Assembly: GCA_038087015.1 (NCBI GenBank)
Contig: JASBNA010000046.1
Location: forward strand, 248,001 to 312,000
Direction of reading: 5' to 3'
Length of the DNA stretch: 64,000 bases
From: Cerrena zonata
Taxonomy: Eukaryota; Basidiomycota; Agaricomycetes; Polyporales; Cerrenaceae
Under the pieces are notes generated by a model. That model ran no database searches and was not told the DNA's origin. It saw only the letters and a list, made by a program, of their open reading frames with translations. The stretch's first letter is position 1; every line of letters starts with the position of its first letter. Shown in pieces: positions 856-56,488 of the stretch. A program made the translations under genes and the position numbers.

Positions 856-3240
856 ATGGATACTGCACGTCTACCAGCAACCACGGACCAGTTTTATGAC
901 CTCCTTGCCTTTCTTATATTCCTATGGATATTATGGCAGTTGCAAGCAACTCTCTTGGGGAAGTCGCCTCTAAGCAACGTCAGGGGTCCACCTTCGCCGT
1001 CGCTGATCTTGGGTACGACATCTTTCTGTATTATCCTAACTCTTTGCTCACGCCAAACACATCCTCAGGCCATTTAGAACAACTTTTCCATCGTCATGGA
1101 TGGAAATTTCAAGACATGCTCCATGAACAATATCAAGGCATTGTGAAATTGCGTGGGCTGCTTGGCGTAAGTGTATACCATCCGGTTCGTCCTCCGGCTC
1201 TATCTGACCACGTCATAGCGAGACATGTTGTATGTGGTTGACCCTAAGGCCCTTAACCAAATCGTTTTGAAGGACCAAGAAGTGTGTGATGTTTCTGACT
1301 TTGAACTTGAGTGAGTAAATTAATAAACTCACCTTCTTGGTGACATTGGTTAATTCGACCTCCTCGAAAAGGGTGATACGCTTTTCTTTCGGACCTGGTT
1401 TGCTTGGTGTTACAGGTTCAGTATTACTCTCGCCGCCCTTCCCGCTTCCGCTCCAGTGCTAATGTATATGTTCACAAGGTCAACAACACAAGAAACAGCG
1501 AAAGATGCTCGTTCCAGCATTTTCAGCTGGAACCATCGGGGAGATGACGCCAACCTTCTATGACATTGCTCGTAGGGTATATCTTGTTTCTTTATACTGC
1601 CATATATCTCTCTCACCCGATTGTCGCCACAGCTCCGACACGGTATGGTTGCTGAGCTGAAACGAACGGAGAACAATACATTGGACATGCATAAGTGGCT
1701 TAGCCGCACGACAGTTGAATCTATCAGTCAAGACGGACTCGGAACTCCCCTCGATATCCTAAGGGACGAAGAAGTCGCTCACCCATATGGTGCAGCTATG
1801 AAGGCCTACATGTATGTCAAACCTGTTTTCATTGCCATTTAGTTCGTCCTCATTCGGATCCCGTTCCACAGTCCTTTGTTAAATATTCTTGCGCCGCTCT
1901 TCAACTTCTTGCCTTATATCAAGAAGCTCGGTTCTGCGCGTCTTCGTCGATGGCTAATTCAGTTTATACCATCATCCACGGTTCAAAAGTTCAAAGACAT
2001 CATCGATACTATGGACACTGAATCGCGAAAGGTTTATCGCTCCAAAGTAGGACATGAAAGGGATTTAGCACCCGATATTGCGGGTGGTAACGACGTAGTA
2101 AGCGTCCTTAGTAAGTATTTCTTTTCGGATACATGTATAGGTTCTGATAATTAGTATCTAGTGAGACTCAATGAGGGAGCTGCGGAAGAAGACCGGCTGA
2201 GTGAGAAAGAACTACTCGGACAGATATCGTACGTCTAACAATTTCTTCCATACCTTCGAAGGTTCTCATTTCTATCAGGCTACTCATATTTGCGGCTACG
2301 GACACCTCTGCATCCGCCCTTACAACAATGTTACAGTTACTTGCTCGGAATCAGGATGTTCAAGATCGCCTGCGCAACGAGATCCAGGAAGCCCGTCACC
2401 AACACGGTGAAGAAATACCATACCATAAGCTCATGGTCTTGCCATTACTTGATGCCGTATGCCGTGAGACGTTACGGATGTGAGTTTGTAACTCACCCCA
2501 CCGAAGGAAATTAACACTAAGATTGTTCATGGAGCCAACCACCAGTGCCGTACTTGATTAGACAGTAAGTTTTGCCTCGCTCCATCCGATCACCAACTCA
2601 ATTCCAGATTATGAAGGGCTCGTAAAGACATAGTTCTCCCCCTTTCTAAGCCGATCATAGGCAATGACGGCTCACTTATACACGAGGTTCCTGTCCCTAA
2701 GGGAACTTTTATAACGATGGCGGTACGTGGTGTAAACATCAGTAAGGACATTTGGGGCCATGATGCAGGGACATGGAACCCCAACCGATGGCTATCCCCA
2801 CTGCCGTCCACTGTAACACAAGCCCGCGTTCCTGGCGTCTTTTCTCATCTGTGGGTACATGTTTTTCTGTTTAGGTATGTGTACTAAGCGAAGTTTTTAA
2901 TAGGATGACTTTCAATGGTGGAGCTAGGTCTTGTATGTAAGTGTTATTACCCCTACGACCCCCTGACGCCACTTAATTATGAGAATTAACCGTAACAGTG
3001 GGTACCGGTTTTCCATTCTCGAAATGAGTACGCAATCATTAATTGACTGTGTTACTCCGGGCGCTGACGTTTCATTGTATAGAAATCGTGCTTTCAGTCC
3101 TCCTTGCATCTTTCCAGTTCAATCCATCAGAAGTGGATGATCAAGTAGTGTGGAACCTCGCCATCGTTTGTTACCCTACGATCGGCAAAGAATCTTGCAC
3201 ACCTTCATTGCCCATCAATATAAGTCTCCGGGACGATTGA
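856..3240 (+). CDS. Cytochrome P450 monooxygenase, intact, about 14 exons
   Basis: A membrane-anchored haem monooxygenase, probably in the ER. The start at 856 gives an N-terminal hydrophobic anchor (LLAFLIFLWILW) followed by the Pro-rich hinge RGPPSPS. Helix I reads FAATDTSAS, helix K ETLR, the PERF-type region WNPNRW, and the haem loop FNGGARSCIGYRF contains the Cys ligand. I could join all exons in frame to a TGA at 3238-3240. Two joins need unusual acceptors (ATGGAG after ETLR, ATGAAG after LIRQ), which explains apparent frameshifts near 2.5-2.6 kb. The product of roughly 500 residues is normal for fungal P450s. It resembles the large Agaricomycete P450 expansions, but I do not assign a CYP family. 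Lying next to peptide precursors and UstYa genes, it is a candidate tailoring enzyme; that role is inference. Confidence 0.9.
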
Positions 3241-4347
3241 CCCCGCCCTACTATGTTGGGTACTTAGTGGGCATGAGCATGTCACAGTTTACGTCGCACT
3301 TGGAATACATTTTGTCCCCGGCGGAGCTACTCATGATAGTCGGTGATCCCCAATTCGATGTGACTCATAAGGACACAAGATTTCGAGGACTAGTCGTAAG
3401 CCTTATCACCGAACAGATCCAGTTGCAATAATGACCGTGGTCTCGTGTTGGCCAATAGGCTCATATGAAGACATTTACTTACTAAAACTAAAACTGATGG
3501 AATCTCATTTCCAAGGAATTCTATGGATTCATGGAAGCAATATTCGTGTCTTCTAGCCGTGGCGGAATCAGCTCAAATCAGTCTACTTCACAAAGAACAT
3601 ACTGTGGAGAGCCGGACAAAAGATACTTCTCTGTTACGTTCCCAGATTAACACGATGTTAGCTGGTAAAAAGTTCATAAGTGCGGGAGGGTGTACGCCAT
3701 TGTTCGTTGGGAAAACGAATGGTCAGGCACCTGATAACCCTATTATAGACTTAGTCGAGTACATCCTTGTAGCACTCACTTAACCGGCGGGATATGCCAC
3801 ATCGAAAGTAGACCGCCTAATACCTATCGGAAGGCTCCAGGGCTTCGATTAGTCGTGGCAAGAATTCTAAAGGAATCTTAATACCAGTTGATATGACCGC
3901 CTTTTGCAATAAGCGATATGCCAGGTGCACTCCGGCGCACTGGGTAAAGAGCTGCTAATGGCGATTGTCCTCCTGAGAACGGTTGGAATTGTAAAAATGC
4001 CACTTTATTTCCGAATACTTGACCAGGGTCTGGCACTACGGGTGGCACTCAAGTTGACATAAGATGAAATAGCATTTTGTCGCTGTCAACAGTGCTTATT
4101 CCCCCTTCCGCGGAGAAGAGACGTGGATATATTGGGCACTTGGCTCACAGTACCTTTCGAGCATGGTGGCATGGTGTCGGTAAGAACAAACATGCTGGTG
4201 ATGGAAGACGGGATAATGCATTCTGATCTTACCTCTCCTCCTTCCAAATTTCCGCGTTAATTTGCTACCATGAGGTTTTCTATAAAACCTGGGGTCAACT
4301 CTTGAGTACCTCACCATCGACAAGAACCTCGCATTCCCGTCAACATC
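3241..4347. other. Intergenic region between the P450 and precursor peptide 1
   Basis: No supported gene. An 86-codon open frame at 3523-3783 has no recognisable features. The last 70 bases hold the TATA box and leader of the first secreted peptide gene. Confidence 0.4.
4281..4287 (+). promoter_or_regulatory. TATA box of precursor peptide 1
   Basis: TATAAAA lies 67 bp upstream of the ATG at 4348. The three related peptide genes also carry a TATA box at 48-76 bp, which suggests strong, regulated transcription. It is recognised only by sequence and position. Confidence 0.6.
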
Positions 4348-4617
4348 ATGTTCAGCCGTACCTTCATCGTCCTTGTCTCTCTTGTTGCTTTCGTTGTCGC
4401 GAGCCCCTTGCCCATCGCACACGGTAAGTCTTTGACTAATTCATCCATGGAGTCCTAAGTCTCATGTTTTCACAGATGGCCACGCTGTTAGAAAGTTGAG
4501 TGAGTATAATGCGGATTAAGACCAGTGGCCAGTGCGACGAAGAATTACTTACTAAAACCATCTCCAGCTGCAGAAGAATTGATCGCTGAATCCAAGACCA
4601 ACGTCGTCTTGAGTTAA
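4348..4617 (+). CDS. Small secreted precursor peptide 1 (candidate RiPP precursor)
   Basis: Three exons (4348-4423, 4476-4499, 4568-4617) encode 49 residues. The start MFSR leads into a strong hydrophobic signal peptide ending near VVASPLP. A short pro-region with the basic pair RK follows, then a C-terminal unit LTAEELIAESKTNVVLS. Both introns have consensus ends and phase 1; the last exon opens by completing a split codon whose first base is A. Precursor 2 has the same phases and a last exon of the same 50-nt length, with the stop at the same place. That argues for a real gene rather than chance. No homologue is known to me. Processing by signal peptidase and a Kex2-like protease is inferred. 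The function could be a RiPP precursor or a secreted signalling or effector peptide. Confidence 0.6.
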
Positions 4618-5433
4618 AGGAAGATATTTGTCTCGAGGTCTGCGAGGGAGATTTGCCTAGTGCTCCAAGTAAGTGGTCCATTAGTGTCTACTTGAATTCC
4701 AATTCTAATGTCTATGTATGCGCTTTTCAAGGCAAGCATATAGAAGATGTCTCTGATACTATAGTTAACGGAACGATGCCATGACTGTATACTTTTGAAT
4801 AAATTGATCACGATCTGAAAGCACAACTGTTTACTAGTAAATGCTTACATGCTTGGTTTCTTGAAAGTGGGGTTGGCAAATATACTTTGGAGCAAATGAA
4901 ATTAGCATAATTTGAATATTACGTAGATAAATAACATGATAGTAATACTATTTACCCTTACTCCAAATACTAATCTAGGCTATATATGCTATTTAGTGAT
5001 TATCTTAATTACTTGATTACTTGATGCCGAAAAGCATCGTTGCGAGCGAAGTTTTTCCAAGGACGCACCCTCACACCGCACCCAGGCTTGTCCAATTATT
5101 CGCTTCTAGAAAAGATAATACATCGAAATGAATAAAGTTCCTTAGTGAATTTCTCATCCCAGGGAGGTTGAAGAGTGCGGATCGAAGTTTTCGGTGAGTT
5201 TTCATACAACTACAGCATCTTCTGGCGACAACAAATAATTTAACGACTATATGACAGACCGAACTTAATATGATCCTTTCCTCCGACACAAATATTCACA
5301 GACTAAGTATTATAAAGGGGTCTTTTGGGTAGCCGCTCGTGGGTCGGTTTCTTCTTTTGTGTGAAGTCTGATGAGACATCCCCATGAGATATATACGTCC
5401 CGAGCGGCGTTGGACTAACTCTTTGCCATCATC
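4618..5433. other. Intergenic, AT-rich, promoter of the 5.4-kb gene
   Basis: No supported gene. The stretch 4860-5030 is strongly AT-rich. A TATAAAG at 5311-5317, 117 bp before the ATG at 5434, is the likely core promoter of the downstream membrane protein; a second TATA-like run lies close to 5390. Confidence 0.4.
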
Positions 5434-6399
5434 ATGTCCATCCTCTCACTCTTTAGACAGCGGAAGTACACCTATAACCGTCTGTCCACTGGCAACGACG
5501 ACGGTCAAGAGTCGCCCGCTGTAGAGAAACCACTTCCGCCGAAGAAGGATGAAAGCTCGACGGTCTTTTATCTCACGCTGTTCTGCGTTATTTGTACTCT
5601 CTTAAATCTCATTATTATCCGAGTGGAGGAATACCGTGCTATTCAAGAAGCTCATCCTACTAACTTGCGTCGACCGAGTCAATTTATCGGTCTAGACAGA
5701 GTCAAACGCCCTTCTACACCAGACGATCGCTCTATCGTGAACTTTCCGTTCATTGTTGGGCTTGTGGATGAGAGTCGTCCACACAGCGTCGTCCCCAACA
5801 TTCGTCGTAATTTGAAGACTCATGAGGAGATAAACGCTCCCGAGGCAAGACAGATACAAGTGACCAAATCGGTGAGTGCTCCGAAACTCAAGCCATTGTA
5901 ACATAATTTATTAATGAATTGGTGCTGCAGATCTCCACCGTGGTGCAGTTCCGCGCCCTAGACTGGGGAATGGAGTCATGCGAGCTTACACTTCGTCTTC
6001 CTTCCGACGAAAGTGCCGTCAGAAGCAACTCGACCCTAGTGCTTGGTGGACGGCTCAACGACATCGATATCTATCGTCTCGTCAAGGACAAGGGCTCATC
6101 CCTCGGTACAGTCATCGATCAACGTAGACTTTCATATCAGACTCGTCCTGCCTTCGGTGAGAAGGTAGGCAGTGTATCTGTCGATTATGGCACGGAGTGG
6201 ACGTATAAGTTCGCATGTGCTATGGATTCGCTGCACGCGTTTGCATTGGTAGCAGCTGACGATTCCGCCCGTATTGAATGGTGGCAAGATAAGCAATCAT
6301 TGGAACCAGGTCAGTTGCTTGTCTGATAGTGCTCACATTATTTGCTGATCGATCCTTTGTGGAACAGCACTCTATGTCTCGCAGTATGCGACTAAGTAA
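5434..6399 (+). CDS. Single-pass membrane protein with GLDRV motif, copy 1
   Basis: Three exons encode about 285 residues. A polar N-terminus of about 45 residues precedes one membrane segment (FYLTLFCVICTLLNLIII). The motif RRPSQFIGLDRV follows, then a C-terminal extracytoplasmic domain with GMESCELTL, the segment IDIYRLVKD and an aromatic patch VEWW-like (IEWWQDK). Topology is probably type II. It aligns along its length with the convergent gene at 7720-8717, including intron positions and the C-terminal motif L-Y-x-x-Q-Y. I know this architecture as an uncharacterised Agaricomycete family; no activity is established. Its place among secreted peptides and UstYa-family membrane enzymes suggests a role in the same secretory pathway, which is inference. 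Confidence 0.75.
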
Positions 6400-7719
6400 A
6401 GGATCGTCGGGCTCACATGATTACATTGTATTCAAGTATCCAATCTGAGACATAACTTCTTTGAATCGACTCCTATTCCATATCGTGACGTCTTCGCATT
6501 CATGTCTATGATAACGGATGATAACCAAGTCCGGCCTCGGGTCCAAGTATGATATCCTACACCACTCCGTCTACGGCAACCACTCTAACACGGAGAATTG
6601 TTCAACGGTGAGACAGCCCTGCAAGTCGGATCTTAGGTCTTGTTATTTTAGGATACGGGATTGTCATTTGGGTGATTTCAAACTATCTTCTAGTATGAGT
6701 GCGGGAACCGCATGTTCCATGATATCCGTTTGCAAATATCAACCTTGTTTGCGGAGTGGTCTACGAACAGTAAGTGTTCATTAATCCTCCTACCAAACAT
6801 CGCGAAACCGGGTTCCAGGTACACCGAAAGGTACAGGTACTTTGGTGTCTTTAGTGTATCCGGACCCGATACGCTGCGTTGTGCACTGAACGGAGTCCGC
6901 CCTGGTCCGTTCACCGTTCCAGCTATCTTTTGGGATCTGTCTTCTATAAAGTTCCAATCAGCGCTGAACACGGACATGTCTACAAACGGCAGATCAAATA
7001 TCATTCACCTGTTGGACAGCTTCACCTTCTGGCAGATGTGCGCTGACAACGAGTGATTGTCCACATAAGGATTCGAGATTTACGTCACCGAGTACACAAC
7101 GCCGCACGGATGTGTCTTGGTGTTCGATGGATAGCCTGGAGATAGCTAGACTTGGCCGTGTCACATTTAGATATCGACGATGGAGCACGCTGCTGCTAGA
7201 ACGTCGTGGTATCAGACTTGTGATGCCGGTGATGATGGGGAAGATGATGCCAGGAAGCATTTCCCAACTCGAAGAAGTCCTATAGAGTTTGTTCATCATG
7301 GCTCACGAAACTGCGATCAAGGAGTGACCATGATGTCTTCGAAGCCTGTAAACTTTGCAATTCCCGGCTGGACACGGATATATCTTCTGGTATCCGTATT
7401 CCCAATGTAGAAAGATGTATCGTAAACTGAGGGATGCTCATCAGAACTTCAGGCTCACAAATGATATCCATCCCCGAGTTGAGGTGATCGGCTTTTGAAC
7501 TATGAAAATACCCACCTCCATATGTGCACCGTGCACGGAAATGCGGATATGTCAGGCCTACGTTGGAACTTACTGTGCATAATTCGGTTCCGTTCATCAT
7601 TTTTCTCCCAAAACAGTGGTGAGAGTACTTAGTTTAAGGCACGTCAAATATGATGGGCGGAGGTTAATCGTATAATGTACACCGGGGGTAATCAATGGCA
7701 ATCACTTTACATGTAGTGA
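6400..7719. other. Unresolved region between the two GLDRV genes
   Basis: Several overlapping open frames of 70-115 codons exist on both strands. None has a domain I recognise and no exon chain is convincing. A plus-strand frame near 6693-6770 (FHDIRLQISTLFAEW) with a consensus donor after it, and one ending at about 7290, might be remnants of a lost gene. The last part is the 3' flank of the minus-strand gene ending at 7720. Confidence 0.3.
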
Positions 7720-8717
7720 CTAATCTGTGAAAGAGGGATATTGGTACAAGAAAACAGCTGAATAACGCATTCGGTTAATTAATTGACTTGAGAGTTGGAC
7801 AGGGGTTCGCTCACCTGGACGTGGCTCTCTATGGTCCTGAGTCCATTCTACATACGTCTCATCGTTGGCCGCAGTAAATTCGAAGGAATACACGGTGTCG
7901 GTCGGGCACCTAAACTTGTGTGTCCACTTGGAGCCATACCGCATAGTAAACGTATCGATCTTCTCTGCCCGACGAGGCCGATTCTTCCATGATAGTACAC
8001 GAGAGTCGATAGAACGGGGTGTGTCAAGCCTCCATACATCAATTACGTTGTTTCCCTCACCGAGGGTTGCGTTGAAGTTACTATGTTCGTGAGCGGCGGC
8101 ACCTTTATGAGCCGGGTCAAGGACAAGTTCACAGTTCTCCATCTTGTAGTCAATCGTGAGAAACTCCACAATCGAAGTAAACTACGGACATGGTCAGAAT
8201 CGAAATAGAGTCACCGCATAGAATCTAAGTTGGACGTACTTGAGGAGTAATCTTGAAGGGTCGGTCCTCGGGAGGCGTGAGGCCACGAAGCTTGGCGATA
8301 CGCTCAGGGTCGTCCTTGTAAACGTGATCGGGCTCTGCGCTATTGACTTGAGTTAGCAGATTGGGCCATACGAGGATGGGTTCGACATCCTCCGGAAAGT
8401 GCGTAACGCGGTCCAGTCCCATCCATTGATTCGGACGTCGTAGTTTGGATAGATCATGATAATGTGTTATCTTGGGTTTATAGGAAGACGTGAAGGCATA
8501 TAAATTTATGCCGGTGCAGAGAACGCACACCGCGATAGAAAAAAGGTTAAACTTGAACGAGCTCGCAGTTTTTACTGACATATTTAAAACGTTAAACTCC
8601 TTCATGGAAACTAAGAGATGTTGACATACCCGGGGCCTCGTATAACTGCTCGTCAGAGTCCGAAGCTGCAGGCGACAGTAACGACTTGCGTTCTTCAAGT
8701 GGTGATTCGAACGACAT
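7720..8717 (-). CDS. Single-pass membrane protein with GLDRV motif, copy 2
   Basis: Four exons on the minus strand encode about 280 residues. The true start is at 8717 (MSFESPLEERK), in a short first exon that splices in phase 1 into the membrane exon. One membrane segment (FNLFSIAVCVLCTGINLYAF) is followed by RRPNQWMGLDRV and a segment ending PPEDRPFKITPQ. The C-terminal domain has KMENCELVLD, IDVWRLD and YVEWTQD, ending L-Y-Q-Y-P-like. It is a diverged paralogue of the gene at 5434-6399, arranged tail to tail with it. It is divergent from the UstYa gene at 9433, so the roughly 715-bp gap probably holds a two-way promoter. Family function is unknown. Confidence 0.75.
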
Positions 8718-9432
8718 GGCTGCTATAGTCCAAACCGCTCGGACGAGCCATACAATAGGTTATCTCCCGTTATTGCTTCCCCCATCATGCACATCTAAGT
8801 TGGGAATGCACGTCAGAAACCTGTGCAGCCGCTCGGATGGGAGCGCTGTGAATTCGGACAAGGGGATCGCCGGGGCGTGTCTCATCTCATGATTTGACTT
8901 TCAAGCGAACGGATATTACTCCGACACAGACTGCTTGTTTGCTAAAATAATTTGAAAGCTTTAGTGCAAAACTTTAACCTGTTTCTCGTTATTCGAGTAA
9001 GCGTTTTTACTCCTTGCCCGGGTATTTCACCCGTGTGGAGGAGGCCAAAAGCATATGTGACACTGACAGATGGAATTCGTTCTGATAGAGCTGCCTGGGA
9101 TCCGAGAAATCGCAAGATCTCGGATTGGTGCGATTTGGGTTTGTGAAAGACGTTTCCACTGGTGCTATTGTATCCGTGTGAACGCATGTGCAGGAGCTGA
9201 GACCAAACAGGACAAATCTGTTCGTACAGATTGGTTCTTCGGACTTTGTATCATCCAGATATCAGGTAAGTGCTTACTCCTTCCAGTGGTCTGGAAGATA
9301 CTATTAACGGCCTCCCAGATTCCACCGCCGGCTGCTAGAACACTCTGCTGGGTAAGCTGTTACTTACTGACAATATAGACTCGTGTGCTTAATTATCTCC
9401 TGATTTGCGATTCTTGTACATCTATAGCCAAC
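8718..9432. other. Putative bidirectional promoter
   Basis: This gap separates the divergent starts of the minus-strand GLDRV membrane protein and the plus-strand UstYa-like gene. Open frames here are short and featureless. Shared control is inferred from the head-to-head arrangement only. Confidence 0.35.
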
Positions 9433-10079
9433 ATGTACCAGGAGAAGTCGTTCACTGGACATCCTGCATGGGCGACCGGGTCTTCGCCCTCTCGTAAGGG
9501 TCAATGGCTATCCGTGTCGGTTCTCTTCGCTCTTGTCCTTCTCCTATCCGTCCCCCTTCCTACTTGGCAGAACATTAGGACGTACATTTCCACTCGTAAG
9601 TATTACTTTCGTCTCTTCTCATCACCTTCTCTCAATGTATCTTAGCACGAGATGCATTGACCTTCAACCTACCACCTCCCGAACAAGTCACAATGCGCAT
9701 CGTTCCCGCCTCGCCGCACTACGAGCTAGGCTCTGAATCATGGAGCAAGATCCTACCTCCCGGCGGACATACCGTTCACTTGACTAACCCGGACGGCTCT
9801 ATCTCCACCCATACCGTCGCCATGTTCCATCAAATTCGATGCATCGACATCCTGCACAAAGCCTATTACGACGAAGGGAGTCATCTTACGAATCCCTTGG
9901 CTCAGCATTGCATGAACTACCTTCGGGAGACGTTCCTTTGTCAAATGGACATGAGGAATGAACCCCAAGGATCGGTTGGAACACGCAACGGCTACGAATC
10001 TCTTTGCTACGACTGGGAGGGTATTTACGCAGAGGCTGAGAAGAACCAGGCGGCGTATTCCCAGCGTGTTGGTTTGTGA
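9433..10079 (+). CDS. UstYa/DUF3328-family protein 1 (divergent motif)
   Basis: Two exons encode roughly 199 residues. A polar N-terminus is followed by one membrane segment (WLSVSVLFALVLLLSVPL) and a lumenal domain. The UstYa-family signature is recognisable as HQIRCIDIL, then about 30 residues later QHCMNYLRETFLCQMD, then CYDWEGI. The canonical family has two HxxHC motifs that probably bind metal. Here the second His of the first motif is Arg, and the first His of the second motif is replaced. The family includes UstYa/UstYb, needed for oxidative cyclisation of ustiloxin, and related oxidases or hydroxylases in other clusters. The changed residues could mean altered chemistry or a non-catalytic partner. 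It is convergent with a second family member ending at 10423. Confidence 0.78.
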
Positions 10080-10422
10080 GGTCGGGGTAGAATGAATACG
10101 CTTCGCTTAACGTTCGATTTTGTGGTACCTCATCGTGCCTCAAGCATCATTGTATATATTATCTTGTAAATGATCCGAAAAATAGACTTGAGATGTAGTC
10201 ATGAATGCGGCGAGCTTAGGAGCCTCTGATGCGTGGCGATATGTTTCAAGCCATAATGGATTATTGTTGACTGTGTTAAGCGAGAGCGGGATGCTAATGG
10301 CTTGATACTGAACGCCCGGGTGAAGTCAAAACCAGCTTAGGAAGAAACACAAATGACGAGGGGGAAAATAGTACAATCATTGTGGTGTAATCAGTTAGTA
10401 CAATGACACGCGGTACTCTAAT

Positions 10423-11090
10423 TTAGATGAGATCGTCCAACGAAACACCATTGAACGTCACCCATTCCTTGAAATTGTCGTTAAGCCATTCTCCCAGCCG
10501 TTTCCAGTCCCTACATTGACGTGTAGTGCCCGTCCGATCCACAGTCAGGTTCCGCATCATAAAATCGCCAGGCTCAAGCGTCATATCGGCATTGCACAGC
10601 GCGATTTGCCTGATGTAGGTGAGGCAGTGGATGAAGTGGTGACTGGGTTTAGCGACATGGTCGGGTGTACTGAAGTCGTGTGTCATAGTGTAGACACAGT
10701 GAAGTGCATGATGGGCTCCGCTAATGAAGCGATAGTGGAACGCTCCCAGATGAGCGAACCCAAGACCATAGTGGTTCGTAAAGAGCGTTTCCCAATTGCC
10801 TGGGGCATCTGGATGCTCGAAGTCGTACCGTTTAGACTCCTGGAAAGTCATCTCGACGGTATCAACTGGTCCTGTGGGCATGTACAATGGGTTATCCCTA
10901 TCGCTCCAAGCTATGATGCATCAGTTGAGACTCTTCATTACAATTCAGGTACACAATGCGTACTATAAATGAGTGCCTTTTCGGGACCAAACACCCTGTA
11001 AAGGTTTGCGAGGAGGATCAACGCATTACACAGTGCAGTCGCCGAGAAGAATATAGTGAGCATCGACGGGGCTCCTGAGCCAACCTTCAT
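10423..11090 (-). CDS. UstYa/DUF3328-family protein 2 (canonical HxxHC motifs)
   Basis: Two exons on the minus strand encode about 204 residues. The first exon (start at 11090) holds a hydrophobic membrane segment (LTIFFSATALCNALILLANL); the intron splices in phase 1 to the catalytic exon. Both family motifs are canonical: HALHCVYTM, and HFIHCLTYIRQIALCNADMT, followed by RQCRDW. These match the oxidase family required for dikaritin cyclisation (UstYa, UstYb, PhomYa types) and for other fungal oxidations. It probably acts in the ER/Golgi lumen on secreted substrates. The convergent neighbour at 9433 is a diverged member, so the pair may work together as UstYa and UstYb do; that is inference. 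Confidence 0.85.
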
Positions 11091-12032
11091 TTTCGCTGAT
11101 GGCAGGGAGAAAGGTGTCAGTGAAGGACTTAGAATATGATTTGTGAAGCCTAATTACCATCACAGTCCACAAAGAACCTGATCGCGAGTTTGGCATCGGC
11201 TCATCGAAACGGTAATCCAGGGGAGTGCTGCACTACTACCCGAAATTGAAGCGCCCCACGAACAATCTATTGTCAGAACTTTCGCCGGGCGTCCCACGGA
11301 GCCTCATGTGCGCCATGTCCATCTGAGAACGTATCTCTCCGCAGGTCATAATTGCACTGCCCAGACTTAGGCAAGAATCAACTGAATCTAAAGCCACAGG
11401 AAATAAACGATCCCGAAACTACGGCGGCCACTAAAACCACCGTCCACCCAACTCCTGAGAATGGCTTGTTCTGACCCCCTCAGATAATTGCTTTGTACGT
11501 GTTTCTCACAATTTTGATGTCTTGATCTATGATGCGGGCGACTATGTAACACCTGAGACAAGCTTAAGATAACATGAGCGACGAAGGCTAAAATAAAGGT
11601 GTAATAAATGAGTGACTCACCCGCAACAAGAGATCTCGGTCTAACAGGATAAACTTTTGATGGCGTTAGTTTAATCTTGAACTCCTTGTCCAGCCGTGAT
11701 AGAGGTGAAATTGCCAACCTAAACAGGCATGGCTTCAGATTCACTGAACGTCATGACATCGCCAAAGTAGAGAGTCCCAGGGAAAGAAATGTCATTATGG
11801 TCTGAGACAACAAGTGTGCTTGTGAAGCACAGTGTATTGTTGCCAGAAATACAGCGACGAATGAGGCACGGAGACTTCTAGACGGTGCCACCGAAAAACA
11901 CGCATCTGCATCTTGTCCCACCGCACCTTCCCCGATGAATCGATGCACGAATTGCCTATATAAGCACCCCCAAATGAAGGTGTTAGGTCGTCTCACCTCC
12001 TCCAGGTAGTCTAGTATCACAGCTAAAGCACC
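11091..12032. other. Intergenic region upstream of precursor peptide 2
   Basis: It holds the promoter of the minus-strand UstYa gene on the left and of precursor peptide 2 on the right. A 118-codon minus-strand frame at 11388-11744 has a hydrophobic stretch but no recognisable domain or splice partners, and I do not call it a gene. Confidence 0.35.
11957..11964 (+). promoter_or_regulatory. TATA box of precursor peptide 2
   Basis: TATATAAG lies 76 bp upstream of the ATG at 12033, matching the arrangement in the other three precursor genes. Confidence 0.6.
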
Positions 12033-12333
12033 ATGTTCGGCCGTAACTTGCTCGTCCTCTTCCCCCTCCTCTTCCTCGCAGTGGCTAGCCCCGTGCCCGC
12101 CGAGGACAAGCGCAGTCATGGTCATGGTATGTTCTGCACCTACAAGACCTCTTGACGAACCCTATGCTCACCTTGTTGTACAGGCGCAACCATCCAGATT
12201 ATTGACACTTCTATGTTGACTGGCGGACGTCTCAGTGAGTACGCTGTGGCTGGTCATTCAAATCGTACTAAACATGTGAGTAGCTTTGGACGAGGTGCTC
12301 GGCGAAGCTAGGATCGCTGTCGTTGGGAACTGA
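12033..12333 (+). CDS. Small secreted precursor peptide 2 (candidate RiPP precursor)
   Basis: Three exons (12033-12126, 12184-12234, 12284-12333) encode 64 residues. The start MFGR opens a signal peptide (LLVLFPLLFLAVAS) followed by PVPAEDKR, a clear dibasic Kex2-type site. A His/Gly-rich SHGHG and a spacer follow, ending in the C-terminal unit GRLTLDEVLGEARIAVVGN. Both introns are phase 1, as in precursor 1, and the final exon is again 50 nt with the stop at the same position. The two proteins are therefore paralogues despite low identity. The first intron's acceptor is CAG, the second TAG. Function is not known; precursor of a secreted, possibly modified peptide is the best reading. Confidence 0.6.
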
Positions 12334-14397
12334 GAATCCTGTAAGTGTTACCTGTCGTGCATTCAGTGAGACACAAGCGGCTAAATTAGTAACACAGCAG
12401 TGGAAGGGTTCATTCAATGGTTTAAAGCGGCACCGACCTTGGAACTAGACGTTTTGGTAAGTTGAGCTTATTCAGTGCGACGAATAGAAGTTAACGGAGC
12501 TTATCCTAGACAATAACGAATCTTGACATGAACTCGCGACGTACATCGACTTCGTATTAATTTCTGAGTTTTTCTTTGAATACTCCCGCCCAGTATGGGA
12601 GTTTACAAGAGTTAACTGTAACCTATATTTTACAACAATAGAACCTGAGAAATCATAAGAATGAACGGTTTCATGTGATTCTTCTTAATGAACGAACCTG
12701 AGTGCATTACATCGTCCTCATTTTGTTGGACTTTATCTTTGAGAAGTCCAAATGTATGGTGCTTACGATGTGTAAGCACAATGACACGAATTATAAGTAG
12801 TTGTACCTTGCCCATGAGCACGGAAGCCACCAAGTATGTGTCTGCTGCGTTTGTGCACATGTGGATCGTAGTATTCAGATTCTATAGAGTCCGAGCTGAG
12901 TGCAACGTAAGGTCGACGTTTGAAGCGAAGGAAGGAAAGCAACATTAGCCGTGCCACTCACACGGCATTTGCCGACCACTTTCTTTCTTGAACTTCCAGC
13001 ATATCCAATACCACCGAAACGACTACGAGTCTGGGTAGTCTTTGCGAGAGTAATAGGGTACGAAAAACCGGTAACAATACAATGTAAACTTTTATGGCGA
13101 ACGCCTGGACGTGTATGAAGTCGATGACAGCTGGGGTGAGTCCCTTCAACTCGGTCGAACCCATGATTGGCTATACGTCTCTAAATTCTCATGCACAGGT
13201 TCTGTTTTGTAGTGTAACAGCTACACAGTGCATAATACAGTTGACAAACAAACCTTCTATCCAGTGACTTCCGTGTCTACTCCGGTTATAATTGTCTCGA
13301 CCAGACGCTCTGAGCTGACGTGGTGAACGCACAGTCCTGCGTCAATACAAGGGGTTGTTTCCGCTTTAATTACGGCTCATTCCAGCTCAAATACCAAGGT
13401 CTTCTACCTTGCCGAATGTCCGAAAATAACACTCTGTTGAACAATTGGTTTGATCATTCAGAGAAGCCTGGCCGTTCTCTTGGGCCTTCCTACGGGACAC
13501 TCCCCGTTCCGTAAAATTAAAAAGTTGACACCAGAAGTCGCCCAGCAAATAATGAGGGCACCGGTTTCTGCCCAGCAGCGCATACAGAATCGTTAAGTTC
13601 CGTTGTAACAATTATCTCCTTCATTCTAACGTTCTACACACTCACAAAGCTCCACATAGCACATTATGCGTGAGCATCTACGGAGAACTCTTGACATACT
13701 TCCCCTGAGCCTACCCATTAACGACGAGTCGGGTGGATGCATTTTCTACGCGTCTACGCGCGAAAGGTGCAGCGCTGATTCCTGAACTTTCGCCGCCATG
13801 CTCTCACTCCATGACAGGGAAATTATACCTTCCACGCCATATCAGAATATGAGTCTTCACAACAACGGAATCTATTCCAGTCTCGTTCTGGGGTACGTAT
13901 CCAATAACACTCGATACGTCCGAACATACCCGTGCTCTGTCGAGTACCAACCTTCCAATCGAAATCTTAATCTTCGGGGCCTGTTTTGCATCGAATTTTC
14001 CTGTTGGAATATCTCAAAAACACGACACCATACTGAAACTAGCACGTCGTTCTTTCGGTGGTCTCCGTATCACCATGAACAAGGTGTTGAGATGGTTTAT
14101 TATCGGATGACGGCGGATATTTTCCTTCCACAGGTAGATCTCCGCTTTTGTGACCGTTTATCTCGGCCTCTGATACCAATTTTTAGGTGTCTAAAATGGG
14201 TTGGACTCCCAATTTTCATCTTGGTCCTATCGCCCTCTGCCACAGCTGTGGCGTAACATTTGCAGCTTGACATCCAGCGCGAAATGACTCAGTACGGCTG
14301 CGGACTCTCTCTCCCATGTCTCTCTGTTGCCCGACTGATATCGGATAAGCCTCTTTCTGTGTGTTAAATCGGTCTAAATTCGACAACGACATGGACG
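12334..14397. other. Large gap between precursor peptides 2 and 3
   Basis: No supported gene. A short coding-like run right after precursor 2, near 12400-12475 (EGFIQWFKAAPTLE), opens after an AG and ends at a GTAAG donor; it may be a relict or unused exon. A 152-codon plus-strand frame at 13798-14256 lacks domains, a plausible leader or homology I recognise. Confidence 0.35.
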
Positions 14398-14405
14398 TAT
14401 ATAAG
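14398..14405 (+). promoter_or_regulatory. TATA box of precursor peptide 3
   Basis: TATATAAG lies 48 bp upstream of the ATG at 14446. It is the closest spacing among the four precursor genes. Confidence 0.6.
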
Positions 14406-14445
14406 AGGGCGCCATATGATCAGCAGCAGCATATTCAACTCCATC

Positions 14446-14752
14446 ATGTTGAGTCGCATTATTGTCGCTGTTACATTCCTAATTGGAGCCGCATTTTCTC
14501 TTCCTCTTGCCGAAGTCGGAGCACTTGCAGAGAAGCGCATCCCGGGGTGTGACTTATGTGGGCTTCATGCCCTTGATGGTCTTATACGAGAAGCCCAAAC
14601 TGGAGTAGTCCTAAGCTCCAAGCGTACGAGTAAGCTTTACCATTGCAACAGCTGAGTCGATTTTTTACTTATATACTTGAATAATCCTCAAAGGCATTGA
14701 AGATTTCGTCGAGAAAGAGGCTGGTTTGGGCGTTACCATGGCTAACAAATAA
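14446..14752 (+). CDS. Small secreted precursor peptide 3 with two units separated by Lys-Arg
   Basis: Two exons (14446-14629, 14694-14752) encode 80 residues. The start MLSR opens a signal peptide ending near GAAFSLPL. Two Lys-Arg sites divide the rest: EKR, then a Cys-containing unit (IPGCDLCGLHALDGLI and EAQTGVVLSSKR), then TSIEDFVEKEAGLGVTMANK. The two units look like repeats of one theme: hydrophobic-acidic helix followed by V-V or G-V. The intron is phase 1 after A, so the last exon matches the last exons of precursors 1 and 2. I chose the consensus GTAAGC donor at 14630 over an earlier GTACGA. The KR-separated repeat is the usual layout of Kex2-processed fungal precursors such as UstA. 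Two Cys in CDLC could form a disulphide or be modified. Confidence 0.65.
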
Positions 14753-15321
14753 GCGTTTTTTTTTGGTAACGTTGTATCATTTGGGCTATATGGTGATATA
14801 ACTAACTAGCCTGTCAGTATACCTTTCCGAGGCATTGTATCATTGTACAGAAGATCGATTTGCCTATCCATCTTTGTTATTGAATGACGTGACTGAAAAT
14901 GTCCCCGCTACTGAACTTGGCGTCTCTCCTTAAGTTACATCTTGGCACCAGAATTAGACCAGTCTAGACTACTACGACGATCACCTTGCTTCTGTTTCCC
15001 TATCTCCGCAGACATCTGGGCCCTTCCATCTTGGGGTTCAAGCAAGCTCTTCTACATACTGACGGTCGTTCAATAGACCGAGCCAAACCCCGTAAATCAT
15101 CGGCCCTTGCTTTTAGATCGGGTCAAACCCTCGCCTTCATCCTTCTTTCCAGGTCCTTTGTCTCAGTTCCAATGTTACCCAAATTTCCGTCAACACCGCA
15201 TCACCTACGAAGCTTATCTCGTCTTCTACGAAAGCTCAAACTTAAAGATCTTCTAGCTACGCCGTGGTTGTCGGCGATTCTTATGCAAAAATGTATTGAT
15301 ACAAACCAGTATTTATCTCTC
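14753..15321. other. Intergenic region between precursor peptides 3 and 4
   Basis: No supported gene. A 123-codon frame at 14986-15357 overlaps the TATA box of precursor 4 and has no recognisable features. Confidence 0.35.
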
Positions 15322-15328
15322 TATAAAG
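15322..15328 (+). promoter_or_regulatory. TATA box of precursor peptide 4
   Basis: TATAAAG lies 61 bp upstream of the ATG at 15383. Confidence 0.6.
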
Positions 15329-15382
15329 GGCACCTTGCATGCGCGGGAAGAGGGTAGCCACCGCCAATTTGGACAACTCGCC

Positions 15383-15615
15383 ATGTTCAACCGTGCTCTC
15401 ATGTTTGTGACCGCCGTCTGCAGCGTCACTGCTGCGGTTCCGCTGGCGTTTGCTCCCAACGCCGATGATATTGCTAGGAGACATATGGGTGCGTAACATC
15501 TATGTCAAATATCTGGACGACCCTTCTAACAGAGGTTTGTTTTGAAGCTAACAATCAAACTACAAGAGAAAACATACCGAACAAGGTTGTGTTAGTACCG
15601 GGAGCTAAACGCTAA
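15383..15615 (+). CDS. Small secreted precursor peptide 4 (candidate RiPP precursor)
   Basis: The start MFNR opens a signal peptide (ALMFVTAVCSVTAAVPLA) followed by a pro-region with the dibasic ARR. After a phase-1 intron from 15489 the frame ends in IPNKVVLVPGAKR and a TAA at 15613-15615. The intron acceptor is uncertain: it lies at 15532 or about 36 nt later. Both keep the same frame and give about 62 or 50 residues. The C-terminal VVL matches precursors 1 and 3; a Lys-Arg directly before the stop is unusual and would be trimmed by a carboxypeptidase after Kex2-type processing. Exon phase, TATA spacing and the MFxR start place it in the same family. Function is unknown. Confidence 0.5.
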
Positions 15616-16147
15616 AGTATGCTGGTTTCTTTATATTCCACAGGCTGAATCTCAAACTAAGTTCAGCATCAGAGAGATCATACTATACAAAATTCCGACT
15701 AGCAATCGGATCCCTTCACGATTCGAAACCACATAATACCTGTAATATAGAAGAGAAGAATATCCAGGAAAAAATCTTTTCGTCAGACCGTGAGTTATAA
15801 ATAAGGGCATCATCCTTGCTGTTAAAGATCCTATCCACTGTCACGAGAACTACGTCTGTCGTTAAAATGTCCGGAGTTATGTTATACTAATTAACTACTC
15901 TAACTACACCACGACTAGAGTTTCAAGTCGTCCTGACATGCATTGCCTAGTGTGGCTTCTCTCAAGATCGCGGCTTCTCACGTGCATGTGATTCATTCAT
16001 TGGTCGCGACGACACTTTGTTCGGACGCGGATCTTGAACAACACCTCCGAGACAGGTCCTGAAAACTTCAAATGGTTACTGCAATAATTCTCCATAGATC
16101 GATGTTCTGACCCCTTCACTGTTACCCATCTCCAAGATAACACCCTC
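15616..16147. other. Intergenic region, possible promoter relict
   Basis: A TATA-like run (TTATAAATAAGG, near 15796) is followed about 70 bp later by an ATG with only seven codons. It may be the remains of another precursor copy or chance. Nothing else is supported. Confidence 0.3.
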
Positions 16148-16580
16148 ATGAATTATTTCGTTGTCTGTGCTCCATTCAAGGTAAGCATGACCTCCCATAC
16201 CTATTCTTAGTGCCTTCTATCGACAATCTAAGCACGGACCAGACCATCATATGTCCACGACGTGCTTATTATGGGCTACCACTTATGCTGCATACGACCA
16301 GAGCCGGGGTGTTCGTTTCACATAGGCTTCGCTGAAGATTTTGTGATCAGCCTAACGACCTCTATCTTCAAGGACTTGAGTATGTTCTACATACTAATCA
16401 AAATTCTGCGTTCCCATTTAGGCTAAGCGTTGCGCTTCTGATGTTACTTTTCAAGATCTTAAGGCGCTCCTAGGACTTACTACCGACGTATATGCCAGTG
16501 GGAACCGATACACAGTGGAGCCTGTCAACCTTCAATGGATTAATTACGACAAGGCAATTCGATGGCTACGCACTTTCTGA
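16148..16580 (+). pseudogene. Broken unrecognised gene
   Basis: A chain of coding-like exons can be read but is out of frame at two joins. A short first exon (MNYFVVCAPFK) has a good GTAAGC donor and joins HGPDHHMSTTCLLW and onward in frame until a TAG. After a two-base shift the frame continues as GFAEDFVISLTTSIFKDL to a GTATGT donor. After another mismatch it resumes with KRCASDVTFQDLKALLG and ends at a TGA at 16578-16580. The protein-like composition on one strand suggests a decayed gene of about 130 residues. I do not recognise the family. It could instead be a live gene with splice sites I have misread. Confidence 0.35.
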
Positions 16581-16995
16581 TACGACCTTTATTCCAGAAT
16601 AAGGACTTTGAAAATGCTGGTAAACGAGATGACCTACAACTCTACAAGAAGAGTATTTTAATACCATGTGGTAAATTCCACACCCACCCGAAAGTATTCA
16701 GGCGCTACAACCACCGAATGACTTCGTTTCTCTTTCCTCCTGTTCTTTTTGACCTTCATCTCCCATGGCTGTCATGCAATTTGCACACGCAGCCAAGATC
16801 AACTGCCGGAGAAGCAAAGAAGGTGCTAGTTCGTGGCAGTTTTGAAGGCGTCCGACGACCATCGTCCGGGGAAACATGGGTAGAAGAAGTCCTATAACTT
16901 CCTTCATGGGATCACATAACGTGCTGGACCGCCACTATTACTTACGTTCATCCCCTCCTTGACTGTCACTGTCCCAGAGTGACTGCGCTCTCACC
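16581..16995. other. Intergenic, promoter of the 17-kb membrane gene
   Basis: Open frames on both strands overlap here without recognisable features. The region immediately before 16996 is the likely promoter of the multi-pass membrane gene. Confidence 0.3.
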
Positions 16996-18339
16996 ATGGC
17001 TGACACGAATGGGACGGTTATTGTCGACGGAAAGCCTTACTTTGGACCTATAGGAGAGACGTCAAATCAGATCCTCTTGGAGAAGACGTTCATGGCAAGC
17101 GGCTACCTAACCGGGGTAGGCTTCGGTAAGTTCAATCAACATAGAATGATAGTAACAAAGGTCAACTGACCTTGACCAATGTATATCAGGTATTCAACTG
17201 GTGGTCTATGGTGCTTGCTTGCGAAACCTTTTGAGACGGAATGTCAAGAACACATTTACATACTTCCTCATGGGGTACACTACACTATTATGTCTCATGA
17301 ATGGCGTATGGTCTGCAACATCTGCATTTGGTCTACAATTGACATACATCGACAATCGAAACTTCCCCGGGGGCGGGTCATTCGCGTTTTTGCAAGTCGA
17401 GTTTTCTGATCCTAGTCAGGTCGTTGCAATCACGGCTTACATCGTAGCCAACGTCATGGCGGATGCTTTACTCGTGAGATACATTCTATATAGTACCCGA
17501 TTAGGTTTGTTTTGACTGAATATGCTTTGCGATATAGCTCTGGAGATGTAGAGTCATCTGGTCAGCTTCCCTTGGCCCAAGGGTCGATTTCATCATGGTT
17601 ATACCTGTGCTTATGCTTCTCTGCTCGATTGGTAAGAGGCTTAAACTTTATTTTCATGACATTTATAAATCATTATGTAGCAATGGCCGTTCTCTTTGCC
17701 TTTGAGACATCTTCACCCGCCGGTTTCTTCAGCAAAATAGCGACATCATTCGCATTGCCCTACTTTGCGATATCGCTCTCATTGAACATCCTCTTAACCC
17801 TTATGATCGTCTTACGATTGGCTGCGTACCGTCAAAGAGGGCGGAATATTTTCGGACACGCATATGGACAACACTATGGGTCAATCTCTACCATGTTCAT
17901 CGAATCTGCCTCTCTTTACACGATATGCTCCATATTATTGCTTGCTACATATGCTACTGGTCATCCCATTAACCAAATATGGCTTGGAATAAGTCCCGCG
18001 GTACAGGTAACAGACTTCGTTTATTGCTTATTCTACTTGCTGAAGGGTCATCACTAGGAAATATCAAATTACATGATCATTTATCGCGTGGTGCAAGGGA
18101 GCGCATGGAACACCAATACTCTGGGAACCGGGGTACACTCCGCGATGGTGTTCGATTCGGGGACATTTCAGAATTCACACTCGCATATTACGGGCACAAC
18201 AGCCACGAAAGCCACAACGACAATCGATATACCGCTGCAAGGAATGCATGAAGCAAATATGAGTGGGACTGCTCTTACCGCCACCCCAGACGAAGGTCGA
18301 GAGCCTTCCTTAAAATGGGCGATACATGGGGACGTTTGA
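16996..18339 (+). CDS. Seven-TM-like Agaricomycete membrane protein, copy 1
   Basis: The ATG at 16996 begins an N-terminus with YFGPIGETSNQILLEKTF, followed by about seven hydrophobic segments. Landmarks are YIDNRNFPGGG, the NVMADALLLWRC join across an intron, LSLNILLTLMIVLRL, YGQHYGSISTMFIES and GHPINQIWLGISPAVQ. The tail after the last membrane segment is Ser/Thr-rich. I recognise this as a common uncharacterised Agaricomycete family with seven predicted membrane helices; it is not a Ste3 receptor. The copy at 36346-37499 shares all landmarks and intron sites. A receptor or transporter role is possible but unproven. Adjacent to the peptide genes, it might act in sensing or export; that is speculation. 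Confidence 0.8.
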
Positions 18340-36345: not shown

Positions 36346-37499
36346 CTATCGATGTGAGGACCGGTTTTGAGTTTGCAAACGTATCGGCTCTCCACGCGCG
36401 GCCTCGATGACCCTATAGATGATCAGATAGTTGCAGATATTCTACACAAGAAGCACGATCCTCCGTCAATCATGACCGGTACTCCACAAGGTAAGAAGGA
36501 CCTCACCTGTACCGCCGGCCCAATAGCCAACCAAATCTGATTAATAGGATGATCCATAGCATACGTGATCAACAGGATCGTCGAGCAAAGACAATAAATA
36601 GCAGCACTCTCCACAAAGATGGATGAGATAGAACCATAATGATCGCCGTAGGCACTTCCGAACACAGCTTGTCCGCGTCTTCGACAACGTATCATCTGGG
36701 CTACGATCATCATGGTGAGGATGATGTTGAGGGAGAGGGAGATGCTGAACCAGGGGATGACGAAGTTGACGGTTTGGGAGGAGAAGAAACCGGCGTTTGG
36801 GTTGGCTGTTTCGAAGACGAAGAGGATCTGCATTGCTGTGTAGTAGTTTGGCGTGAGTATACTGGATTTGGTTGGAGTGGGATGGAGTGTGGGGACGTAC
36901 CTAGAGAGGCAAGGAGCATGAGACCCGGGAATATCATGTAGTAAATTCCACTTGGGCCCATGGACGCCTTCCAGATTACCGAACAACGCCATAACTGAAA
37001 GAAAATGTAAATATCAATATATATAATCATTAATCAAACGAGGACTCACAAGAAGTGCGTCTGCCATGATATTCCCAATTGTATACCCAACATTCGAGAG
37101 GACATTAGTTGGCAGCGGCGATTCCACCATAAGGAACGCAAAAGGCCCTCCCGGATAATTTCGATTATCAACATAAGTGATTTGAACGCCATAAGCAGAT
37201 GTCCCCGTCCAAATCGCGTTCATTGCACAAAGCATAGTAGTATGAAACATCAGAAACTTGATAAATCGCGTCAGGGGCCGACGTTGCCATAGTCCACGCA
37301 TGCACATCAGGTAGAGAACCAACTGAACACCTATGTCACACGACTTATGTTTTGGTTATAGAGTAGTCGACGAAGGAACGGGATTCGCACCAAAACCAAA
37401 GCCGGTCAGGTAGCCAGCTGCCACGAATGTTTTCTCCAAGAGGATTTCGTCTGGAGTTTCGCCTACTGGGCCATAATATGGTTTAGTGTTATTCGACAT
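36346..37499 (-). CDS. Seven-TM-like Agaricomycete membrane protein, copy 2
   Basis: Minus-strand paralogue of the gene at 16996-18339. The start at 37499 (MSNNTKPYYGPVGETPDE) and all family landmarks are present: YVDNRNYPGGPFAFL, NIMADALLLWRCSVIW, LSLNIILTMMIVAQM, YGDHYGSISSIFVES and DHPINQIWLAIGPAVQ. After the last intron the final exon reads NICNYLIIYRVIEA and ends early at a TAG at 36346-36348. The cytoplasmic tail is therefore much shorter than in copy 1 and lacks its Ser/Thr-rich stretch. Introns sit at the same places as in copy 1. No function is known. Confidence 0.8.
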
Positions 37500-55534: not shown

Positions 55535-56427
55535 TATGACGAGGTACCTTTCCCTGTCCACCGAGCATATCAGATCTCAGTGGTCGAACTTGAGGACGCA
55601 CTTTTCGATACCTCGCCCGTATCCACGCCCAACATGTTCCGCCTTCTGGATTGTGTCCGTTTCACAAAGGAACGCTCTCTGCTCATATATGAAACCCCGG
55701 ATATACCTATGGTTCCTTATATGACCGTGTCATATCCATGGATCGGCGTGGCGTGTAACGAGAGGGTTCCCCCTGAAGGAAAGACTTTTGAACTACACAC
55801 CACAGCTTCTGGAGCCCGAGGAGATCCCATCAGTATATCCATTCTTAAAAGGATATTCTTTCTTGCTAGAGTCGAAAATACGAGATTTCTGTGGATCGAC
55901 CGCTTGTGTATTCAACAGGGAGACCCGGACGACAGGGAATGGCAGATCCAAAGAATGTATACGATTTTCAAACGAAGTCAACTTTGCATAGTAGTCCCGG
56001 GAGGCTTGCAACGTCTGGCAAATGTCTACGAGGAAACTCCGTGGATATCGAGGGCATGGACTCTTTTGGAAGTAATGGCCGCGCCAAAAGCGGACATAGT
56101 AACTAAAATGGCCCCCACATCTCTTGACGAATTCTTACTCAGTTCTACCGACCCGTTATACGGGATGCGGCTTTTCGGACGCCAGCGTCATAGGCCCTTA
56201 CTCGTGGACGCTTTCTCTCTACGTGATGTACAAGCGACAGACAAGCAGCGATACTACCACGATTGATGCAAGACATCTCTGATCCACAAACCGAAAGTGT
56301 CTGTGCATTGGCTTTCAGAGACGCAGTATTCTTGACAGGAGCAGCCATCTCATCCCAGTGGAAAGAACTCATACAAGCAGCTATCACCTTACCGCTATCG
56401 GTCTCATATGCGTGGCAAATATCACAT
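55535..56427 (+). pseudogene. HET-domain unit 1, internally deleted
   Basis: Opens after a TAG acceptor with no in-frame ATG before NMFRLLDC. The HET (heterokaryon incompatibility) signatures are present: SYPWIGV, FLWIDRLCIQQGDPDDREWQ, WISRAWTLLEV. The frame then stops (QRYYHD, TGA at about 56264-56266). In another frame it resumes with QDISDPQTESVCALAFRDAV, SSQWKELI and reaches a GTACGT donor at 56428. Compared with unit 2, roughly 50-60 residues between QRY and the FRDAV box are missing, so a deletion with frameshift best explains the break. HET proteins trigger cell death on fusion of unlike mycelia. This unit is probably defective, though a shorter HET-only product could still be made. 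Confidence 0.6.
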
Positions 56428-56488
56428 GTACGTAATTCATTGCTCACCATTCAATAAATAATCTAACTAAAGTGTGTTTTGTACCTAG

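Follow-up and report, generated by a model that had tools for sequence, protein, structure and literature searches.

The stretch of Cerrena zonata DNA analysed here, positions 248001 to 312000 of contig C46 (64,000 nucleotides, hereafter 'the window'), carries between its positions 856 and 18339 a group of genes in which four short genes for putative secreted peptides, P1 to P4, lie on either side of two genes of the UstYa (DUF3328) family. All comparisons were made within this single genome of 55.5 Mb in 171 contigs. The genes that a sequence-only reading had claimed for this interval (a P450, two DUF3328 proteins, two paralogous membrane proteins, a multi-pass membrane protein and four short genes) are present, as judged by Pfam matches and gene models, and its claim that no housekeeping genes lie between them also stands: none was recognised from 856 to 18339, and TSR2 comes only after the group. 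The genes, in window coordinates, are as follows.

856..3240, + strand: P450 gene (PF00067, Pfam p450, E=1e-53), spliced by eye, approximate
4348..4617, + strand: P1, 49-residue precursor; exons 4348-4423, 4476-4499 and 4568-4617; module TAEELIAESKTNVVLS on the last exon
5434..6399, + strand: But2-like single-pass membrane protein 1, 282 residues (PF09792, E=2.7e-07); one hydrophobic segment; exons modelled
7720..8717, - strand: But2-like single-pass membrane protein 2 (PF09792, E=1.1e-11); 3' end uncertain
9433..10079, + strand: UstYa1, degenerate partner with HQIRC and LAQHC (PF11807, E=1.9e-07); exons 9433-9595 and 9646-10079
10423..11090, - strand: UstYa2, complete partner with HALHC and HFIHC; exons 10964-11090 and 10423-10910 (PF11807, E=1.4e-13 for exon 2)
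12033..12333, + strand: P2, 64-residue precursor; exons 12033-12126, 12184-12234 and 12284-12333; module TLDEVLGEARIAVVGN on the last exon
14446..14752, + strand: P3, 80-residue precursor; exons 14446-14629 and 14694-14752; two modules
15383..15615, + strand: P4, 57-residue secreted-peptide candidate; exons 15383-15488 and 15548-15615; no module; membership not shown
16996..18339, + strand: multi-pass membrane protein with hydrophobic segments; no accepted Pfam family
from 18632, after the group: TSR2 housekeeping gene (PF10273)

The PF11807 match of UstYa1 reaches 31.6 bits against a cut-off of 25, and that of UstYa2 is also above the cut-off. The intervals at 6.4-7.7 kb and 12.4-14.4 kb of the window are without an assigned gene. 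A small two-exon reading frame (MNYFVVCAPFK...) at 16148-16582, between P4 and the multi-pass gene, was spotted by eye.

The models of the short genes were built from splice consensus and our own enumeration. Their six introns are all GT..AG and in phase 1, and the starts of P1 to P4 are signal-peptide-like by our own hydrophobicity rule, which is not a trained predictor. None of the four matched an accepted Pfam or NCBIfam family, and whole-protein searches of the genome with P1 and P3 returned only self-matches. Past residue 19 there is no tyrosine and no tryptophan in any of them, which bears out the claim that the predicted cores lack tyrosine. The accompanying claim of basic cleavage sites in all four survives for P3 (KR at residues 30 and 59) and P4 (RR at 32, KR at 56), each with two dibasic sites; P2 has a single KR at 26, distant from its module, and P1 has only an RK at 31. 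What P1, P2 and P3 have in common is a Tyr-free module with the consensus TxxELxxEAxxxVV. P3 carries it twice, as ALDGLIREAQTGVVLSS followed by KR within exon 1 and as SIEDFVEKEAGLGVTMANK, one residue longer, on exon 2. P4 scores -5.7 bits and has no module.

The module recurs at other UstYa loci of the genome. Twenty-four DNA stretches at UstYa matches outside the window were fetched (20 + 4), a set that stops short of the loci at C1:1887k, C7:221k, C12 and C68 and of the outer flanks at C8. At C5:940-941k, a UstYa pair has two signal-peptide genes nearby, at distances of 0.6 and 1.1 kb; they end in SKDDILKEACGLAVMS and SKDEILKEACGSEVTS, and in the second of them exon 2 is uncertain. At C11:427.9k, a single gene carries four modules, TASDLFLEAKANVVL, TVAELFKEAKADVVV, TIEDILAEAKTNVVQ and TEAELFSEANTDVLQ, one per exon, with a complete UstYa gene about 1 kb away; the exon joins of this gene (C11:428k) rest on splice consensus judged by eye. 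When the ten module copies are aligned, one Glu is invariant and the next Ala nearly so.

The C5 and C11 genes are not blind finds, since the motif was noticed in them during a scan of signal-peptide starts. Profiles trained on one locus were also applied to another. Among the window's 71,303 stop-free 14-mers in six frames, a profile made from the four C11 modules only gives the top score to P1 (29.4 bits) and the next to P3 (13.2 bits, followed by 11.8), and the P2 module is absent from the top 12. In the reverse direction, a profile from P1, P2 and the first copy of P3 gives three of the four C11 modules ranks 1-3 among the 256,391 14-mers of the other loci, with little to spare for the third (14.9 against 14.3). 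With leave-locus-out training, P1, P3 and P2 rank 1, 3 and 5 of 71,303 in the window, the C11 modules rank 1, 2, 3 and 5 of 11,018, and the C5 modules rank 3 and 4 of 21,860; among all 327,694 14-mers the weaker copies fall 12th (P2), 25th and 31st (C5) and 135th (the fourth C11 module). The module match is beyond chance for P1 and P3 and weaker for P2. The sequence-only reading had counted four precursors: P1 to P3 are a real family, also found at two other UstYa loci, and P4 is not shown to belong to it.

A loose DNA pattern for the module was discarded, being at background level (82 places against 144 in a reversed control). A tight pattern found five places (three in the C11 gene, one in P1 and one at C58:6147) against three in the reversed control, and serves to locate copies, not as statistical proof. 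Near UstYa genes there are 25 signal-peptide-like starts in 186.4 kb; farther off, 107.6 kb contain 7. These counts include membrane-protein false positives, and the density of such starts is a weak argument for the short genes.

The second recurring feature is the arrangement of the UstYa genes themselves. UstYa1 and UstYa2 are convergent, tail-to-tail, with 343 bases between them, and the window and the fetched loci together contain six such convergent pairs: one in the window, one at C5, one at C8 and three at C11. The same asymmetry is seen in all six, one partner having both HxxHC motifs and the other lacking the same two of the four histidines. In the degenerate partners, Arg (five cases) or Gln (one) stands in for the second His of motif 1, and Leu (five) or Ala (one) for the first His of motif 2; the remaining two His and both Cys are kept. 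Among the 19 UstYa frames compared, two complete motifs are present in all 13 others and in none of the six degenerate partners. With the motif letters masked (the masking missed one motif of C11:537116), the six degenerate partners make up one side of a branch with support 99/98. These 19-row trees cover the main group of 20 frames apart from a short one at C11:473248-473511, two more distant UstYa groups being left aside. Contig C124 (54,964 bases) is excluded from the counts; it nearly duplicates a portion of the UstYa region of C11, with almost equal scores, and is either a haplotig or a recent duplication.

In each kind of partner, degenerate or complete, the C11 copies separate from those of window, C5 and C8. 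Inside the C11 set the two kinds branch alike; among window, C5 and C8, the branching order has support (94/90) in the degenerate partners, and in the complete ones it is weak or lacks resolution. Over aligned stretches, identity is 29-41% between partners and 31-72% among copies of one partner. As judged from these comparisons the pair is old and has been kept together, which suggests that UstYa1 and UstYa2 form a hetero-oligomer. No credible PDB sequence match was found for UstYa1, a structure prediction of the UstYa exon was unusable (mean pLDDT 35), and the word heterodimer was not found in DUF3328 papers of the open-access literature searched. A single-pass protein with a histidine-rich tail, HSHSHSHSHEHTHD, is encoded adjoining UstYa genes at C11:536398-536847; a role in copper delivery would be a guess.

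The module tracks the branch of UstYa2, not the pair, because all three module loci belong to that branch. It is a branch of complete UstYa proteins (support 100/99) made up of those of the window, C5, C8 and C11:429k, and module genes are found at three of these four members.

We read the region as a biosynthetic gene group in which secreted modular peptides would be oxidised by UstYa proteins, a variant of the dikaritin logic, and put the probability of this at about 0.5. The module family, the C11 arrangement with a module on each exon, the asymmetry of the UstYa pair and the recurring neighbours described below are read from the DNA; the substrate, the hetero-oligomer, the use of copper, the reaction, its location and the accessory roles we infer as follows. 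P1 to P3 would enter the secretory pathway, each with one or two Tyr-free modules, and the module would be oxidised by UstYa-family proteins in secretory membranes. Catalysis would fall to UstYa2, with its complete motif, probably joined in a hetero-oligomer to UstYa1, in which half of the site's histidines are lost. Since the module regions lack tyrosine and tryptophan, the likeliest chemistry would be on aliphatic C-H, for example desaturation, hydroxylation or the linking of side chains, with the Val-Val pair and neighbouring Asn, Asp or Thr as its sites. The peptide would then be released by kexin-type and other proteases; possible roles of the multi-pass and But2-like membrane proteins are assembly, transport or reception, and an S9-type peptidase encoded farther along the window, having no signal peptide, would act in the cytosol. 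A fuller version of this scheme is speculative and, taken as a whole, unlikely: the peptides would form a Tyr-free class, an exon could encode one module, aliphatic oxidation would be carried out by a UstYa heterodimer of a complete and a half-site copper subunit, and the linked multi-pass protein would be a peptide transporter or receptor.

Such a role for UstYa proteins has precedent. In the literature, cited here and below by PMC number, these proteins cyclise and desaturate secreted peptides (PMC6514808, PMC10512285), and ustiloxin requires both UstYa and UstYb (PMC6514808). The UstYa homologues of phomopsin are required for desaturation too (PMC10512285), so that tyrosine is not required for all UstYa chemistry. 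The dikaritins (ustiloxin, phomopsin, asperipin-2a, victorin and possibly the epichloecyclins) are the nearest known model, and on our analysis a dikaritin-like working is the best-supported reading. Both systems have a secreted precursor adjoining UstYa/DUF3328 genes, often two of them, and repeated short modules, here in P3 and the C11 gene. The N-terminal signal peptide expected of a dikaritin precursor is predicted here by the hydrophobicity rule only. Repeated cores split by dibasic sites are missing, as P1 and P2 have one module each, P3 has two with KR between them, and dibasic sites are mostly absent from the four-module C11 gene. The separate exons for the modules at C11 and the degenerate motifs of one UstYa partner are further differences.

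The likeness to Kex2-processed repeat proteins (KEPs) is looser. Short secreted precursors with some dibasic sites are common to both, as are repeats in the case of the C11 gene. However, P1 to P4 fall short of the definition used in the KEP survey, at least three tandem repeats of at least eight residues between Kex2 sites (PMC7329392), and the C11 gene, for all its four modules, is poor in dibasic sites. Strict membership of the dikaritins or the KEPs thus fails on tyrosine, repeat number and cleavage sites. KEP-type precursor-like genes are present at two other UstYa loci of the same genome, with VEDFFRPSIWAKREDEVEDLFRPPVWAKR at C1:1.967M (C1:1966150-1967790) and DTDLFFAQKYNRALERRDTDLFFAQK at C5:116k (C5:116355-116780); these models, made by consensus, have KR-separated repeats containing Trp or Tyr.

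Two further systems offer partial parallels. CctR, a DUF3328 enzyme, is described as copper-dependent, with two coppers per chain, a homodimeric structure and inactive alanine mutants of the motif residues (PMC12435403). The window proteins resemble it in their single-pass topology and in the two HxxHC motifs of UstYa2; the four-histidine pattern HxxHC(x)nHxxHC is found in UstYa2 only and not in UstYa1, and in place of the CctR homodimer there is a conserved pair, of which UstYa1 lacks two of the four histidines. Cycloamanide and borosin precursors are processed in the cytoplasm (PMC9769878). The likeness to these is the S9-family peptidase gene in the wider neighbourhood, whereas the starts of P1 to P4 are signal-peptide-like and not those of cytoplasmic precursors, and the S9 gene lies at least 21 kb from them.

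Several observations weigh against the oxidation pathway. The predicted mature parts contain neither Tyr nor Trp, whereas the ustiloxin, phomopsin and asperipin types have tyrosine in the core, and the genes of the window have one or two modules and few dibasic sites. Because few such sites separate the modules, the Kex2 logic is incomplete. The dikaritin-type logic of the sequence-only reading is supported in part, for the UstYa genes beside a putative secreted-precursor family, with an exon-borne module instead of a plain Kex2 core. The shared intron phase says little on its own, since UstYa1 and UstYa2 also have phase-1 introns. Module genes accompany only two of the six convergent pairs (window and C5). 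At C8:828k, the fourth member of the UstYa2 branch, there is none in the 10 kb fetched, and one signal-peptide-like start there gave no convincing model; there is none adjoining the three C11 pairs in the fetched flanks. UstYa genes without precursors, which had been named beforehand as telling against the proposal, are thus found in the fetched DNA at C8 and at these three pairs. Conversely, within the 20 kb fetched at the module locus C11:428k, the complete UstYa gene stands without a degenerate partner. The outline of the original interpretation remains, with corrections: three related precursors, an exon-borne module, an asymmetric oxidase pair and possibly a wider neighbourhood.

The module need not be the part that is modified. 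It may be a segment recognised by the enzyme, the true core being the adjacent variable stretch, which in P2, P3 and the C5 gene runs from KR to the module. Precursors of ribosomally synthesised and post-translationally modified peptides keep their recognition sites and vary their cores (PMC12048977), and the stretches preceding the module do differ between genes. Against this, the C11 gene is almost all modules and P1 has little else past its signal peptide. We regard this arrangement as possible, if short of probable; it is compatible with the oxidation pathway and differs from it on the core only.

It is rather unlikely that the products are linear, unmodified secreted signals or defence peptides and that the UstYa proteins oxidise some other substrate. 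The KEP-derived peptides so far detected in agaricomycetes, namely Coprinopsis, Lentinula and Pleurotus, proved linear or at most minimally modified (PMC9769878), which also counts against the oxidation pathway; moreover, the modules offer no aromatic residue for cross-linking, and four of the six UstYa pairs are without a module gene in the fetched DNA. On the other hand, all three module loci have a UstYa gene of the same branch at a distance of about 1 kb or a few kb, an association that holds among UstYa loci, the only loci fetched, so that module genes elsewhere may be missed. Less likely again is that the short genes encode small secreted proteins or effectors that lie near UstYa genes by chance. 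The roughly twofold higher density of signal-peptide-like starts near UstYa genes, and the lack of a family for P4, would fit; the identical module type at three UstYa loci would not. That the short models are artefacts, resting as they do on splice consensus and our own enumeration, is very improbable, as independent loci have the start, the module and the module-exon border in common.

If correct, the oxidation pathway would be a new variant of fungal modified-peptide pathways, with modular secreted peptides and a matched copper-type oxidase pair in which one partner has lost half of its histidines. Mushrooms have many UstYa-like genes, Pleurotus for example having 16 (PMC8893723), yet of 1680 basidiomycete KEPs in the Umemura survey just 103 were close to DUF3328 genes (PMC7329392), and the substrates of these oxidases are thus left open. 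Genes like P1 to P3, with one or two modules, fail the three-tandem-repeat rule and would escape such a survey, as would genes whose modules are divided among exons. The module and the asymmetric pair provide two searchable signatures, and the pair poses an enzymological question: why keep a partner in which the same two of four motif histidines are lost in every copy seen? On the sequence comparisons made here, the new elements are the Tyr-free exon-borne module family, the asymmetry of the UstYa pair and the recurrence of But2-like and S9 neighbours.

The group may extend beyond 856..18339. Two genes farther along the window, for which membership is inferred, are candidates.

36423..37499 (end provisional), - strand: second multi-pass gene, of the same family as 16996..18339
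39357..41779 (ends approximate), + strand: S9-type peptidase gene (PF00326, E=6.4e-18)

Upstream of the window lie a further S9 peptidase gene (C46:235449-236263) and a further P450 gene (C46:246121-247152), and the group possibly starts before the window. The S9 peptidase of the window has four further homologues in the genome, three of them at or near UstYa loci: C5:933k (54% identical) and C8:832k (53%), near pairs, and C46:235k (60-70%), about 21 kb from the window pair. The fourth is distant (33%) and lies on C39, a contig without UstYa matches. The place of the S9 gene in the group is tentative, since it lies about 29 kb from the window pair and beyond TSR2.

The two But2-like proteins, in which PF09792 marks a But2 C-terminal domain, are paralogues, 39% identical across one exon, and their only homologue outside the window, at C11:540.4k, is 2.7 kb from a UstYa frame (one of one at a UstYa locus); the predicted structure of the But2-like exon is all-beta, with a mean pLDDT of 55. 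Relatives of the multi-pass protein are found at fetched UstYa loci (C5:936k, C8:830k, C11:424k, 468k, 510k, 529k and 539k, and C46:362k) and also at many places elsewhere in the genome, notably on C53. A DUF6534-like label for this protein was dropped as no accepted Pfam match was obtained. The P450 family is large and spread across the genome, with the nearest relatives at C46:246-247k; as a specific partner it was set aside, for although one relative (C32:340-342k) is near a UstYa gene, many closer ones are found genome-wide.

Interleaved with the three C11 UstYa pairs, at 470k, 501k, 508k, 532k and 542k, are five genes for related alpha/beta hydrolases, with an accepted match to PF00561 and an S33 match below cut-off. 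At 55535-58113 of the window there are two tandem reading frames for putative heterokaryon-incompatibility (HET) proteins.

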